64,000 nucleotides of DNA from Rhizophagus irregularis (lineage: Eukaryota; Glomeromycota; Glomeromycetes; Glomerales; Glomeraceae). The DNA lies in contig NC_089431.1 in the NCBI RefSeq assembly GCF_026210795.1, positions 3,286,001-3,350,000 of the forward strand, given 5' to 3'. The notes under the pieces were generated by a model. That model searched no databases and was not told the DNA's origin. It saw nothing but the letters and a program-made list of their open reading frames with translations. Shown here piece after piece: positions 1,527 to 47,269 of this stretch (position 1 is the first letter of the stretch; the number at the start of each line of letters is the position of its first letter). The position numbers were made by a program, and so were the translations under genes.

Positions 1527-2263
1527 CTAATCACTATCGGATACTGCGGTATGATATTTTTCAACTAAAGTTAATCTTTTTTTACCACGTCGAAATTTTC
1601 TTTGATTAATAGATTTATAAGTATCAGTTCTACTAATACGAAATACTTCATATTCATCCACATTAAATCTAATATTATCATCAAAATTTGTTAAAGTAGT
1701 TGGTGAAGATGTAGTAACATTATTCGTAAGATTCCATTCATTTCCCCAAATATCATTTGAATTTGTTGAAGAAAATGATGCTCCTAAACCGAATGTAGTT
1801 GAACTCCATCTTTTTTCATCATTTGATGATGATTCCCCTGTTAAACTTTTTATAATAGTATCACAAATACCTTGTCTATAAGATTTTGAATTAGAAGAAC
1901 ATTGTTCATCTCTAGATAAATTTTCTACACACCATAAATCTCCATCTCCAAAACATGGTCCATAAGTAGCTGAATTCCAAATTGCTTTTTCAGGTTGTAA
2001 AATACGTGATAATTGTGATTGTGGATTTGATCCATAACCTAAAGAAAATATAAAACTATCTCTTGTTGTAATCCAACCAGATTGAGATTGCCATGAAGTT
2101 GGATTATACCCTCCAATAATATGATCCGTACCACTTATTCTCATTATAACTAAAGTTGGTCCTTTATTATCACATTTTTTATGAAATTCTTCAGCTGAAA
2201 ATCCATCAATACTTCCTCTAAGTAATAAACCAAAATGATATTTTAAATTATTATTATTATTAA

Positions 2264-2299
<36 letters not shown>

Positions 2300-3326
2300 G
2301 TATTTGTCCACCTCCATCAATCCAATTTGCTATAATTGATATCTGTTCTTGTATTACGAGACATGATCTAATGGCATTATTTGGTAAATATGTTAATGAT
2401 TCTTTTTGTACTCCTGTATAATAAAAACATTCTAAATCTTCATATAATGAATCTGGTAAACAACTTTTAAATGGTCTAACCATTTGATAAAATTCTGATG
2501 AATTAATTTCACAAAATCTAATAAAAGGTATCCATTGTCGTAATGTTTCTTCAAATTTATTAAAATCTTGACTTGTCCATTTAGTTATATCATTACTAAA
2601 ATTTGGATGTTTTGATGTACACCATTTAATTATATGATTCCATATATTTATCTCTCTCATTTGAAAATTACGTTGTTCTAATACGAATTCTAATGTATCT
2701 TGATCTATAGTAATAAAATCATCCGCCATTAATAATACATCTGGTTCATTATTAAGAATATTTTGACAAAAATCTTGTAATTCTTTTGAAGCTTCTAATT
2801 TAACTGAAGTCCTATAAACAAATGCGAAACTTTGATGTAACCATAATCTGTGATGATTAAGCAAATGATCTTGCATGAGGTCATGTAATTCATTCATTAA
2901 TAATTCATCAGCTGCTACCAATATCTCCAAACATCTTTCCCCTGATTTTTCTGCTAATGCCATTGTTCCAGTATAAATATACCTATATATATATATATTT
3001 AAAAAAATTTATTAAAAAAAAAATAATAATAAAATAAAAAAAAATAAAAAAAAATCCATATTATAAACCTACTCCAAAATATCACCAAATACTAATGCAG
3101 ATATATTGGGTTTATTAAAAACTATTGCATCTCCTTCTTTCTTTACCCATTGACTTGATAAAGCAGTATTAAAATAAGGTGACCTAATTCTCAATATACC
3201 AGAATGTGCTCTAAAAGTTTTAATGATTGGTTCTTTACCAGCATATATAATTACATCATGATTATAAGCTTCTTTTAATAATTTATGAAAATCTCTTGAA
3301 AGAGCTCTTAACTGTTCAAGTGTCAT
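1527..3326 (-). CDS. BTB-BACK-TLDc domain protein
   Basis: Two exons, 3326-3073 and 2982-1527, joined across a 90-bp GTAGGT...AG intron, give 569 residues. The splice restores the family motif YIYTG right after the BTB fold. Order: BTB/POZ (about residues 15-90, with the DVII and FRAHSGILRIRSPYF signatures), BACK (about 115-215, ending in FIRF...RPFKSCLP), then TLDc (about 295-530, with IIGGYNP and GDGDLW), and a basic C-terminal tail. An asparagine run coded by an AAT trinucleotide tract (about 2255-2306) separates BACK from TLDc. BTB-BACK proteins commonly act as Cullin-3 adaptors; TLDc is linked to oxidative-stress proteins and V-ATPase. The substrate is unknown. The closest relative in the window is the next gene. 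Confidence 0.88.
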
Positions 3327-4147: not shown

Positions 4148-4898
4148 TCAATAATTTGCAGGTATGACTTGAAAAACTTCATAATCCTCATCCTCAAAAT
4201 AATTGCTAAAACCGATATCTTCATAAATAATACCAGGAAAAACGCTCCAATCTAATCCAGAACGAACATCCTTACTACCCCAACAAGGACCACCATTATT
4301 ATAACAATAAATAGCTTTATCGTGTTTTTCTTTAATAACGCGTCCAATTTTTGCCGTATTCTTATCAGACCGATTTGATAATGTGAATATAAAACTTTCC
4401 ATGGTCGATTTCCATCCTGTACCATTCCAATCCAATGGATTGTAACCTCCAATAATTCTATCCGAATTCTTTTTCTTTATGATTACAATATTTGCTCCTT
4501 TGTCATCACAATGATCATGAAATGATTCATACGTATCTCCATCCCGACTTGCTCGATAAATAAGTTTAAATTCGTAATTGGATGTATCTGAGATTTTTTC
4601 TTGTTTATCAATCCAACTGGAAAAAATTGGTGAGAGTTCATTTATATCCAATAAATTAGATTTCTTTTCCATCGAGGGAACTGGTTCATATACCGTGCCA
4701 TTTCCATTTATTGTTTCTTTGGGAGGTAATTTTATTGAATCCATTAATTTCTCCAATCCGAGTTGATCTGCAGCTTCTAAAAGATTTTTTAACTCGGAAA
4801 ATTGTTGTTCGTTAAAATCAAATTGTCCTGTGTACAAATATCTAAATAAAGGTATGCAAAGATATAAAATTATTAAAATTGCTATATATATATATATA

Positions 4899-4931
<33 letters not shown>

Positions 4932-42677: not shown

Positions 42678-44244
42678 ATGGAAGATAAACTTTTCACGAA
42701 ACTCTCTCAAAATTTACTCGAAATTTTAAATGATGATGAATATTATGATATTACTATTGAAGTTGGTAATGGGCCTTATATAAAATTATTTCGTGCTCAT
42801 ATGGTTATCTTATATTATCGTTCTCCTTATTTGCGAAGAATTTTGTCAACAAATAAAAAGAAAAATGATGGAACTTTGGCACATATTAAGTTACCAAATA
42901 TTTTACCCGAAACTTTTCAGATAATCTTAAGGTATGGAAGAAAGAATTCAATTATAATCAATTAATATGATTTCTAAGTTTATAAATACTTTTATTTAGG
43001 TATATTTATAGTGGAGAAATTTCTTTGAAAGAATATGATACTTCAGATATCATTAAAATTTTAGTTGCTGCTAGTGAACTTAGTCTTCAAGAATTAGTCC
43101 TTTCTTTGCAATTATTTTTGATTGAAAATGAATCAAACTGGATGGAACTAAATTTTAACCTGATATATCAAACAGGTTTTGAAAATAGTTCTTTTTTGGA
43201 ACTTCAAAAATATTGTACTGATTTAATATCCAAAGAACCAGATAAGATATTCAAATCACCAAATTTCTCTTCAATTCCGGAAAAACTTTTGGTCTCACTT
43301 ATTCAAAGTGATAATCTTCGAATAGATGAAATTCACATATGGGAATATGTACTTAAATGGGGTCTTGCTCAAAATCCGGTACTTCCTTCTGAACTTACAA
43401 GCTTTTCAAAAGAGGATTTCAATGCTCTGAAGAATAGCTTGCACCAATGTGTTCCGTTTATCAGATTCTATAATTTAACTTCTGAAGAATTTTCAGACAA
43501 AGTATTACCTTATAAAAAAATTTTGCCAAAGGAATTATATAAAGATTTATTGAAATATTTCTTAAGTCCTAATAATCAATCAATTAAGGAATCGAAAAGA
43601 AGATTACAAAAAGAATCTCTTAAGATGAATATCGTAGAAGATTCCCTTGATAACATTAATTATGGTGGCGAAGAATCAAAATTTGATATTAAATCTCACC
43701 GGGCAACTGAGTTTGAAAAGAAAGAATCAACTAGGAAAGAGAAAGTCGAGAATAGCGCACCACATATAAATATTAATGCATTTAGTCAAACGCAATCGCA
43801 AGCATCTCAAATATCCACTGCTTTTGCACAACCCACATTTGGACAAAGCGGTTTTGGTTTTGGACAACCAATATTTGGTCAATCAGGGTTTGGATCATCT
43901 TCTTTTAGTAATATTACACTCAAAATTCCAAGTGGAGGTGGTTTTGCTCGTTTTGCAAGGTACTTTGAAAAGTTTATTTTAAATAATTAATTTTCATTAT
44001 TTAATTTCGCAAGATCTACTTAAATTGTATTGTTTATTTATTTTCAATTTTACGTTACGGCAGAAGCAGCAGCGGTTTTGGCAGTGCATCAATTACTTCA
44101 AAATCGGTGTATGATATTATATATATATTTTTTATTTATTTTTTTGTCTTTAACTCTGTTTATTAATATAATGTCTTTTTTTATTGAAGCGATAAACCAC
44201 CCAACACATCGTTAGATCCAACTTGGTTTCAAATTCGTAAATGA
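42678..44244 (+). CDS. BTB-BACK protein with FG-repeat C-terminal tail
   Basis: Four exons (42678-42931, 43000-43959, 44064-44108, 44190-44244) give 437 residues. BTB (about 10-88; DITIEV, FRAHMVILYYRSPYL, then YIYSG across the first splice) and BACK (about 115-225; EIHIWEYVLKWG, CVPFIRFYNLTSEEF, PYKKILP) match the family of the 1.5-3.3 kb gene. In place of TLDc there is a charged linker and then a Gln/Ser/Phe/Gly tail with six FG dipeptides (PTFGQSGFGFGQPIFGQ, SGFGSSSF, SSGFGSAS), like nucleoporin FG repeats. Exon 3 continues the FG pattern in frame, which supports the splicing. It could be targeted to, or interact with, nuclear pores. Confidence 0.8.
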
Positions 44245-44541
44245 ATATCTTGGAGCTTTTTATAATTATATCTGTTATATTAAAAGGAATTGTAGTGATA
44301 TTAACAAGTAATTAATATATTAATAAAAAAAAAGAGAGAATTACCAAAAAAAAAAATCAAAATAATATTTCCATTAACCTTTCCCTTTCCAAATGTGACA
44401 GAAGTTATGCACGTTACAGAATTTATTATGTATTCACCGGGTAAATCTTGGTTTTAAAGAAATACGAAATTTGGCGGAATTCGTACAGTACATTAAATAT
44501 TTCGTTTATTCACGAATATAGTTTGAAGTTGTGAAGACATA

Positions 44542-44700
44542 ATGACGAATGTTTTGCTCAACGAGTTAGCTAATTCAGATGAACCCTTTTACCTATTCAA
44601 TACAGCGGAGCGCAGTCCACTCGCATCCAGAAATAACAATGGGGACGAAAACTTATTTTGTTTATTGAATTTGCATATTATTGAAACCTTCATCAGTTAA
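44542..44700 (+). CDS. possible small ORF, 52 codons
   Basis: An ATG-started frame with balanced composition (MTNVLLNELANSDEPFYLFN ... ) ends at TAA 44698-44700. It lies in the 820-bp gap before the YjbQ-family gene. It may be a short gene, a first exon, or an upstream ORF in that gene's leader. No family recognised. Confidence 0.3.
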   Translation: MTNVLLNELANSDEPFYLFNTAERSPLASRNNNGDENLFCLLNLHIIETFIS

Positions 44701-45063
44701 AGTTGATCATCGGTTTTGTAATTAAAAATATGGCAATAATTTAATAATTTGTTACTAATATTACTTATATGCTTATTTTTTTTTTTATTATCATAAATCG
44801 CTATATAAATCTCTAAGAATAAGGATCTTATTGAAGACATCGATTAAGTATCTTGATCCAAAAAAGCGCTTTTTGCATTCAGTCATTTATGAATAGATTG
44901 ATTTGATGATAATGACGTAAAAAGTACATCAGATCTGTTGATAAGATCGACGAATCCATCTTTCTGTGAATTAAAGAATAAAATTTTACTCTTCTATTCC
45001 GTAGAAAAAAGATCTCTTTATAGTTCAAATAATTATCTTAGATTCAATTTTTTATTTAAGGAA

Positions 45064-45719
45064 ATGTCTTGGTTTCAAAAGACGGTTAATTTAAGATCAA
45101 AATCTCGAGGATGTCATTTAATTACTAGAGAAATTGAAAAACAAGTCCCTGAAATTGAAGAATATGAAATAGGGATGGCAAATATTTTTCGTAAGTCTAT
45201 TGTTAGTATTTATTTAATTTTGGTCAAAATTTTATAATAATTTATTTTTTTTTTCCTCACAATAAAAGTTCAGCATACTTCTGCTTCACTATGTCTCAAT
45301 GAAAATGCTGATCCTGATGTAAGAGTAGATATGGAAATGGCATTGAATAAAATAGTTCCAGAGAATTTACCTTATGTTCATACCGATGAAGGTCCTGATG
45401 ATATGGTAAATTTTGTACCACTCTCGTTACATGTTTTCTTTTGAAGTTTTTTTTGTTCGTTCATATGTGATGTAAATTATAGCCTGGTCATGTTAAATGT
45501 GCTCTTGTTGGCGCTTCTTTAAACATACCAATTACAAAAGGTAAATTGAATTTAGGAACATGGCAAGGGTAAGTCAAATACATTGATGTTTTTTTCTTGA
45601 TAAATTCTTTGAACTCCTTAACAATTCTTTTTTTTTTAAGCGTTTGGTTATGCGAACACAGAACACATTCTTCTGGAAGGAGAGTAGTTGTTACCTTACA
45701 AGGTGAAAAAAGAGCTTAA
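45064..45719 (+). CDS. YjbQ / UPF0047 family protein
   Basis: Four exons (45064-45190, 45269-45405, 45483-45568, 45641-45719) give 142 residues, the usual length. Family marks: MSWFQKTVNLRSKSRGCHLI, FLQHTSASLCLNENADPDVR, HTDEGPDDMPGHVKCALVGA, LGTWQGVWLCEHRTHSSGRR. The His, Asp and Glu residues of the HTSASL and DEGPDD motifs form the conserved pocket. YjbQ proteins show weak thiamin-phosphate-synthase activity and have been linked to DNA or metal handling; the cellular role is unsettled. The in-frame extension upstream of 45064 is Ser/Phe-rich and not part of the family, so MSWFQK was taken as the start. Confidence 0.92.
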
Positions 45720-47269
45720 ACTTTCATTATAGAAAATCCTTATTATAGAATATCAAAAATTTAAAATTTTTTTTATGTAATTGTGAAGTTTGATAGTCTC
45801 CTTGAGGGATGAATGGTAGAATAAATAATATATGATTTAAAATTGGTTAGTTTGCTAATGGAAAATTAATTTTGTTCGTGATACCCATTTAACCTTGACC
45901 AAATAAAATGATAATTCTAAATACTTAGCATTCGATTATTACATTTGCACTTTGAGTTTTGTCTAGTAAGGATTTGAAAAAACTTGATCTCTTAAAAATG
46001 AAGTGATCGTTTTTATTTATTCATCCAGTATACAAAAGAAGAATTTTTACATGTTATTTTATTTTTTTGAAGAAACAAGAAATGTTTCGGAAATTGATTA
46101 TTCATTTTACATGTATCTTATTCTTATACAATAGAATGCTAAACTATTTCAAATGCTATATATATTTACATGTTGAATGCTATTTTGCTATGTGAATATA
46201 GATTGTTTAAATTTTTATTAAAAGTTGTTTGTATATTTTCTATTCTTATTTAAAGGACAATCACATTTTGAATCAAACACTTGCTTTTTTAAATAAAGTA
46301 TTATAAATGCCAATACTCTTAAATAAATGCATCACATAAAACTTTTTAACTTTATAAATAACTTTCAGATCAATTTTTAATAATATTAGTACTTTAATTT
46401 TCTTTAATTATTAAACTATTATAAATATTCTCTAATAAGATAAATTAAAATTCTACTTATTTCTAAATTTAATAAATAAATGATACTTTTTTTTATAATT
46501 AGTAATACATTTATACTTTTCGTCAAAATGACAAAATACTAATTAAATTTATTTTGACAGACGTAATGTATTTTGACAGACGTAATTAATTCATAGTAAT
46601 TTTATAATAAATAGTGAATTGGTCCGTTCGCCGAAATACGACGTAATTAATTAGCAGAGAAGTATAAATACATTCTCTTTATTTAATATCAAAAAATTGA
46701 TAATATACAAAAAATGAAAATAGCCAAAACACAATAAAAAAAAAGTATTTACATCATAACTAACTATTTTAGTTTAAAAGATTTAATTCGTAATCCACCA
46801 GTAAACCATAAAACTTGGCTATTAAATTCCGGTGAAAGTTATATATATTTACTAATAGCACGAAATCTACAGTTCCACCAATGCAAGGTACAAATTACTA
46901 AAATATTATATGAAAACTAATATTATAGGCATAAAAATATGCCATTTGGCTATCTTAATAATAAAAGACTGGTAAAAATTTTAAGCACCAAAAGACACTT
47001 TCATAAGAGCTGAAAATTTGAATTTGAAAAAAAGAAAAATTTAGTATTTTAAAATTTTAAAGATAACTCATCATCTAGTGGTTGTAGGAAAATAAAATTT
47101 AGTTCATCGAATTTGTCTCATCGAAACACATCTAATGGTAATAATTTTATGTCTCTATAACTAATGGAAGGCAAGTTATTCCATATTTTTTCTCCAGAAT
47201 CGCAGATTCTAAATTATTGATAAAAATATATATGAACTTATCACCACCTTTTAATAGTCAAATTTTATG
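45720..47269. other. intergenic, mostly AT-rich
   Basis: No intact gene. TATTTTGACAGACGTAAT is repeated twice in tandem near 46550-46585. A minus-strand protein-like remnant lies at about 47060-47213 (listed separately). Confidence 0.5.
47060..47213 (-). pseudogene. short protein remnant with IWNNLP motif
   Basis: Read on the minus strand from 47213: FRICDSGEKIWNNLPSISYR, then DIKLLPLDVF, a stop, and DKFDELNFIFLQPLDDELS. The W-N-x-L-P motif occurs near the C-terminus of many LINE reverse-transcriptase proteins, so it may be the end of a LINE ORF2, but the piece is too short to be sure. Confidence 0.35.

Follow-up and report, generated by a model that had tools for sequence, protein, structure and literature searches.

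The window, that is, the whole stretch of 64,000 nucleotides that was analysed (C3:3286001-3350000, in a searched genome of 146.7 Mb and 32 contigs), carries on its plus strand at 42678-44244 a predicted gene whose BTB-BACK head is followed by six FG dipeptides. This gene was confirmed as four exons encoding 437 amino acids, a structure based on sequence and splice signals only, in which all three introns are GT..AG and the frame stays open to the stop codon (Table 1). The wording of the original prediction suggests that all six FG dipeptides precede the third exon; the total of six stands, five being found in exon 2 and the sixth in exon 3. Because these five sit in the same exon as BACK, splicing cannot part them from it, and skipping of a separate FG exon could therefore remove only the sixth; an unspliced reading on through exon 2 also retains five. 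Exon 3 has a second in-frame AG acceptor 3 nt downstream. The downstream neighbour, at 45066-45719 of the window, is an ordinary UPF0047 gene (E 3.2e-41).

Table 1. Parts of the predicted BTB-BACK-FG gene, in positions of the window
Feature	Position	Strand	Basis
Exon 1: start codon and beginning of the BTB domain	42678..42931	+	gene model, Pfam BTB
Intron 1, 68 nt, GT..AG	42932..42999	+	gene model
Exon 2: a single uninterrupted frame that takes in the remainder of BTB, then BACK, the linker and five FG dipeptides (of six)	43000..43959	+	gene model, Pfam
BACK match, aa 151-206	43196..43363	+	Pfam PF07707, E 1.5e-6
Putative junction zone	43597..43635	+	blastn of linker against 69 paralogues and donor; exact-match shuffles
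Probable NUP214-derived part of exon 2	43636..43959	+	alignment with donor
FG block, five FG	43836..43895	+	sequence, gene model
Intron 2, 104 nt; at the position of the penultimate intron (79 nt) of the C31 NUP214 gene	43960..44063	+	donor alignment
Exon 3, sixth FG	44064..44108	+	gene model, donor alignment
Intron 3, 81 nt; homologue of the final C31 NUP214 intron (95 nt)	44109..44189	+	donor alignment
Exon 4: ends ...DKPPNTSLDPTWFQIRK and stop; NUP214 counterpart ends ...NKPIIPSSSDPAWQWQARK and stop	44190..44244	+	donor alignment

The BTB-BACK head named in the original prediction was upheld, since both domains are matched above the curated Pfam cut-offs: BTB at aa 17-128 (E 3.4e-18, 66.3 bits, cut-off 20.5) and BACK with 28.6 bits (cut-off 20.9). 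Three other Pfam matches in the protein all lie below their own cut-offs, and neither TLDc nor an FG-nucleoporin family was matched by Pfam in it. No TLDc was found downstream of the head on the plus strand of 43596-46500 either, and the gene thus lacks the C-terminal domain that defines BTB-BACK-TLDc proteins.

Origin of the FG tail

When the 164-residue tail was searched as protein against the genome, it matched, besides its own three exon pieces, a sole significant place at C31:1449474-1449617 on the minus strand (E 2.8e-5, 58% identity), together with one additional place at E 3.2; the reverse search from the donor side recovers the pair of donor and window gene weakly (E 0.0135). The donor gene spans C31:1449192 to about 1454350 on the minus strand, and four of the six upstream exon pieces submitted to Pfam match the NUP159/NUP214 propeller, one of them above the cut-off (E 7.4e-16). 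From order, strand and spacing we infer that these propeller exons and the FG exons form one gene, the donor FG exon itself having no Pfam family match. Compared with this NUP214/Nup159 gene of its own genome, the window gene agrees in its C-terminal FG block, its SGGGFARFA block, both of its final introns, its last exon and its stop, but it is without the N-terminal propeller and the coiled-coil region and has a BTB-BACK head instead.

In a spliced alignment from NINAF/NANAF to the stop, 63 of the 94 aligned residues are identical (67%), the window gene having six FG dipeptides and the C31 donor ten. At the DNA level the two 3' ends align at 69% over 451 bp including the introns, plus a 48-bp stretch at 90%, the E-values of this comparison being flattering because the sequence is AT-rich and the simple-sequence filter was off. 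The non-FG C-terminal block reaches a score of 128, as against a mean of 28 (SD 5.5, maximum 50) in 2000 shuffles. The FG region is homologous to that of a nucleoporin gene, introns included, and the tail, which had been described as nucleoporin-like, is almost certainly a copied NUP214-type 3' end, joined as DNA to the BTB-BACK head within one exon and in frame. Since the introns were retained, a copy at the DNA level and not a retrocopy is indicated; the lengths differ between window gene and donor by 6 nt each in exons 3 and 4 and by 25 and 14 nt in the introns. None of the 69 paralogues read (see below) carries a NUP214-type tail, which argues that the capture ran from NUP214 to BTB-BACK.

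It is scarcely credible that the tail is convergent low-complexity sequence without nucleoporin ancestry: FG/GQ repeats easily arise, and the window gene and the donor FG exon both go without a Pfam FG-family match, but the window gene has in common with the C31 gene its non-FG block, both the positions and the sequence of the introns, and the last exon, and this reading was rejected. An artefact of assembly was likewise rejected, identity to the donor being 67% in protein and 69% in DNA and not near 100%. Capture by a Pack-MULE transposon was also considered and found no support either way, the best inverted pair being 37 nt at 70%, AT-rich and among 22 weak pairs; the nine direct-repeat families around the gene are of equally low quality.

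In regard to the junction, blastn of the linker against the 69 BTB paralogues shows DNA similarity as far as about 43597 (for L072, 43616). Similarity to the donor 5' of NINAF is weak: short matches occur at EDSLD (E 0.017) and, following the order of the donor, at EFEKKE (E 0.12), with an equally good out-of-order one beside them and no significant protein match there. The longest stretch in which linker and donor exon agree exactly measures 16 nt and lies in the same frame, a length reached by one of 2000 codon shuffles. These two anchors, weak taken alone, open the NUP214-derived part of exon 2, the firm portion of which consists, in order, of the NINAFSQTQSQ block, the FG block and the LKIPSGGGFARFA block. 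NUP214 similarity probably begins at about 43636, and the putative join was placed at about 43597-43636, with NINAF, at about 43771, as the cautious alternative start.

Codon comparisons give different values for the two halves. Between the head and its nearest paralogue (L017 on C7), dS is 0.54 and dN/dS 0.19 over 192 codons, and the omega of the head's own branch, which is partly older than the capture, is 0.18-0.27 in six chosen three-way comparisons (bootstrap upper limits 0.26-0.65); at the codon level the head shows purifying selection. Between the tail and NUP214, dS is about 0.20 and dN/dS about 0.52 over 45 hand-picked well-aligned codons, a choice that biases the distance downwards. 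The capture looks younger than the split between head and paralogue, because the dS of the tail is about 0.20 as against 0.54 for the head. The tail has kept its reading frame, but its dN/dS is compatible with relaxed constraint as well.

The BTB-BACK family and its other tails

The tails that follow BACK were surveyed in the 69 best head matches among about 95 other candidates (96 were scored out of 2,167 first-look places), and three more genes (L094, L095, L096) were read by eye. With a TLDc profile built from 17 tails of these same genes, TLDc was called in frame in 53 of the 69 paralogues and in a broken frame, that is, in another frame or past a stop, in five (L018, L022, L023, L031 and L059), while 11 have none; among those read by eye, L095 and L096 have a TLDc that carries on in a second frame. 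The claim that TLDc has been replaced in the window gene is therefore sound. The closest relatives read are nine genes on contig C7, to which the head is 72-79% identical over exon 2, the difference from the TLDc genes being the NUP214 end that the window gene has in place of TLDc; in many relatives the head match extends into an upstream exon at the same place. On the other hand, the family link that had been drawn to the BTB-TLDc genes of the window is a distant one (33% identity) for the gene at 1527-3008, which is the one of the two (the other lies at 4148-4930) that the comparison covered.

Swapping of tails within an expanded family, as originally proposed, reaches further than had been suggested, some of the 11 genes without TLDc having MIF4G, P-stalk, UBA or RasGEF/PAM2-like ends. 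In L032 (C3:5267980-5271633) the BTB-BACK head runs into MIF4G in one open frame of 519 aa (Pfam MIF4G, E 7.1e-41), and this MIF4G is 72% identical to C12:3858437 and 70% to C16:4347582; its source would be eIF4G, as a C23 gene that belongs with these matches (58%) has the Pfam eIF_4G1 region. L039 (C3:4221150-4224779) ends in ...EESNTDDEDMGFGLFD (...DDEDMGFGLFD) and resembles the C-terminus of the ribosomal P-stalk over profile positions 64-88 of 88, with a match (E 2.2e-5, 25.3 bits) that is below the cut-off of 28.1; a genome-wide search with its tail reached only E 0.03. Proline-rich tails with a UBA-like exon downstream are found in L042 (C12:519999-523634) and L050 (C3:3704000-3706400), the UBA match being above the cut-off in L050 (E 3.5e-6) and only below it in L042, and this exon is presumed to be spliced onto both. 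A source for the UBA tail was not found in the genome, where the matches outside both BTB genes are weak only (C27, 51% over 35 aa; C31:1904367, 41%). L024 (C7:1858039-1861752) has an acidic FVYP-repeat tail that is 79% identical to the end of a C14 protein (L093, C14:2472200-2473900) matching PAM2 and, below cut-off, RasGEF; this capture is apparently young, and a neighbouring relative, L026, retains TLDc. A broken further copy of the L024-type tail lies at C7:1840501-1840816.

The remaining tails are of a simpler kind. Repeat or short tails occur in L051, L055, L060, L065 and L073, and the repeats are of tryptophan or of NRNTRDQS in L051, L060, L065 and L094, the last of these having been read by eye; L015, also without TLDc, is a degenerate tandem copy. 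Genome searches for a donor of the repeat tails matched only L051 itself for L051, and L065 itself together with a nearby copy on C3 for L065.

Two MIF4G genes on C16, L091 (C16:4347000-4347700) and L092 (C16:4522600-4523350), have a 5' leader and first codons that resemble those of BTB genes near L032/L034. When their starts were compared by blastn with 78 loci, one was 73% identical to L032 over 135 bp (E 1e-14) and the other 77% identical to L034 over 104 bp (E 3e-15), in AT-rich sequence and with the filter off. Both have the look of relatives of the BTB-MIF4G chimera in which BTB-BACK would have been lost while the start region and the module stayed.

In a FastTree phylogeny of exon 2 heads, midpoint-rooted and with groupings given without support values, the genes with NUP214, MIF4G, P-stalk and C14-type tails stand in four separate places beside TLDc genes, while those with UBA and W-repeat tails and L073 form one group and L051 and L055 another. 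From these placements it is likely that tails changed independently in the family four or five times or more, and the tree and the family together point to a window gene whose head derives from a C7-type BTB-BACK-TLDc gene that lost its TLDc part. This suggests a family that tries out new binding tails, and re-tailing in the relatives offers the testable idea that the purpose of one such greatly expanded fungal family is to diversify what is bound, beyond multiplying copies.

The expansion of BTB genes in Rhizophagus irregularis has already been published (PMC8647823), and in animals gene fusion, mostly after duplication, has been described as the main route of domain gain (PMC2926785). Among the matches listed in a literature search of titles and abstract beginnings, no fusion of BTB-BACK with a nucleoporin FG end and no tail capture in this family was found, nor was anything found that treats Rhizophagus, BTB and TLDc together.

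Possible roles of a BTB-paired FG tail

BTB domains give dimers, and the explanation that we prefer builds on this property. Taken as a whole, it is given a probability of about 0.45: the BTB domain of the chimera would pair its copies and thereby present the six-FG tails with avidity, and these tails, whether at the pore or in the cytosol, would bind the partners of the NUP214 C-terminal FG region, chiefly the exportin Crm1 but also further transport receptors. Either a ligase would then be brought by the BACK region to the receptor or to the cargo, or the protein would merely compete for the receptor and sequester it, and the same BTB-BACK family could make other such proteins via uptake of other C-terminal modules. 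As regards its parts, binding of receptors through the FG dipeptides is argued by analogy and falls somewhat short of an even chance, recruitment of a ligase is unlikely, and the protein might be expected to enter nuclear pores.

The analogy comes from SQSTM1-NUP214, for which it has been reported that the last 121 NUP214 residues bind Crm1 by way of their FG motifs when attached to an unrelated adaptor, and that mutating five FG lowers Crm1 binding by more than half (PMC7188244). Binding by the window protein may be weak, since it has six FG as against 14 in SQSTM1-NUP214 and ten in the donor stretch. The leukaemia fusions SQSTM1-NUP214 and SET-NUP214 likewise combine an unrelated N-terminal protein with the C-terminal FG end of NUP214, as described for them (PMC7188244), but they are somatic and human, whereas the window gene is germline and fungal, has fewer FG and has a head under purifying selection. 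It is a natural germline parallel to these fusions, and the effect of an FG tail on a foreign scaffold could be studied in it.

The strongest alternative, doubtful on balance and yet to be taken seriously, is that tails are shuffled neutrally, a large recombining family taking up any 3' ends at breakpoints, so that the chimeras are transient and the FG tail is inert. The debris present in the family (a broken-frame TLDc in five of the 69 paralogues and one degenerate tandem end), the failure to find a donor for either of the repeat tails searched in the genome (L051 and L065) and the tail dN/dS of 0.52, which indicates no strong constraint, all agree with it. However, the FG tail has remained in frame through three exons and its two introns look intact, the head's own branch shows constraint, and four other tails match known binding-module families or the end of a real gene and not random sequence.

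The original prediction was of a Cul3 adaptor that partitions into nuclear pores, which we regard as unlikely. BTB and BACK are both present, and the head matched 34 solved chains in a sequence search, including the BTB-BACK/Kelch proteins gigaxonin, KBTBD2 and KLHL11, but most of these chains are other BTB kinds, such as BCL6 and ZBTB proteins. Moreover, the general statement on which the prediction relied, that BTB-BACK proteins are Cul3 adaptors, finds no support in this form: the phi-X-(D/E) motif through which Cul3 binders are described as making contact (PMC6484134) is missing from the BTB alpha3-beta4 loop of the window protein (STNKKKNDGT, with K replacing the expected hydrophobic residue, at a position judged from sequence and not from structure). 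The same contact is absent in 66 of the 70 genes scanned, the window gene among them, with a formal match in L051, L063, L071 and L079. Gigaxonin, with a similar loop, does bind Cul3, and the missing motif is therefore not decisive, although recruitment of a ligase is left unsupported because the motif is lacking; the Cul3 premise is thus weak for this gene.

A further reading, distinctly improbable and argued by analogy, is that the family serves as a platform for captured baits or decoys, in which heads are re-tailed with copies of the fungus's own vulnerable machinery that parasites attack or dock on (the NUP214 FG end, eIF4G-type MIF4G, the P-stalk tail, UBA) and, by multimerising, would trap parasite proteins or mark them for degradation, much as TRIMCyp does by means of cyclophilin A. 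Several distinct modules do occur on related heads, and it has been reported that picornavirus 2A protease attacks both eIF4G and the pore, where its target in that study is Nup98, found with Nup214 captures (PMC9168619). High-copy genes, BTB included, are described as forming strain-specific accessory sets in R. irregularis (PMC8647823). Nevertheless, no parasite target readily suggests itself for the UBA, W-repeat and FVYP tails. If it were true, the bait reading would give this fungus an equivalent of TRIMCyp and of the integrated-decoy receptors of plants. TRIMCyp has a RING/TRIM part, and its CypA was gained by retrotransposition. As in the window gene, an oligomerising N-terminal family (TRIM5) has there been joined to a captured host domain (cyclophilin A), which according to the reports arises repeatedly (PMC6677749, PMC2924388, PMC4936896); unlike in TRIMCyp, the captured copy in the window gene keeps its introns, and an antiviral role for this gene would be hypothetical.
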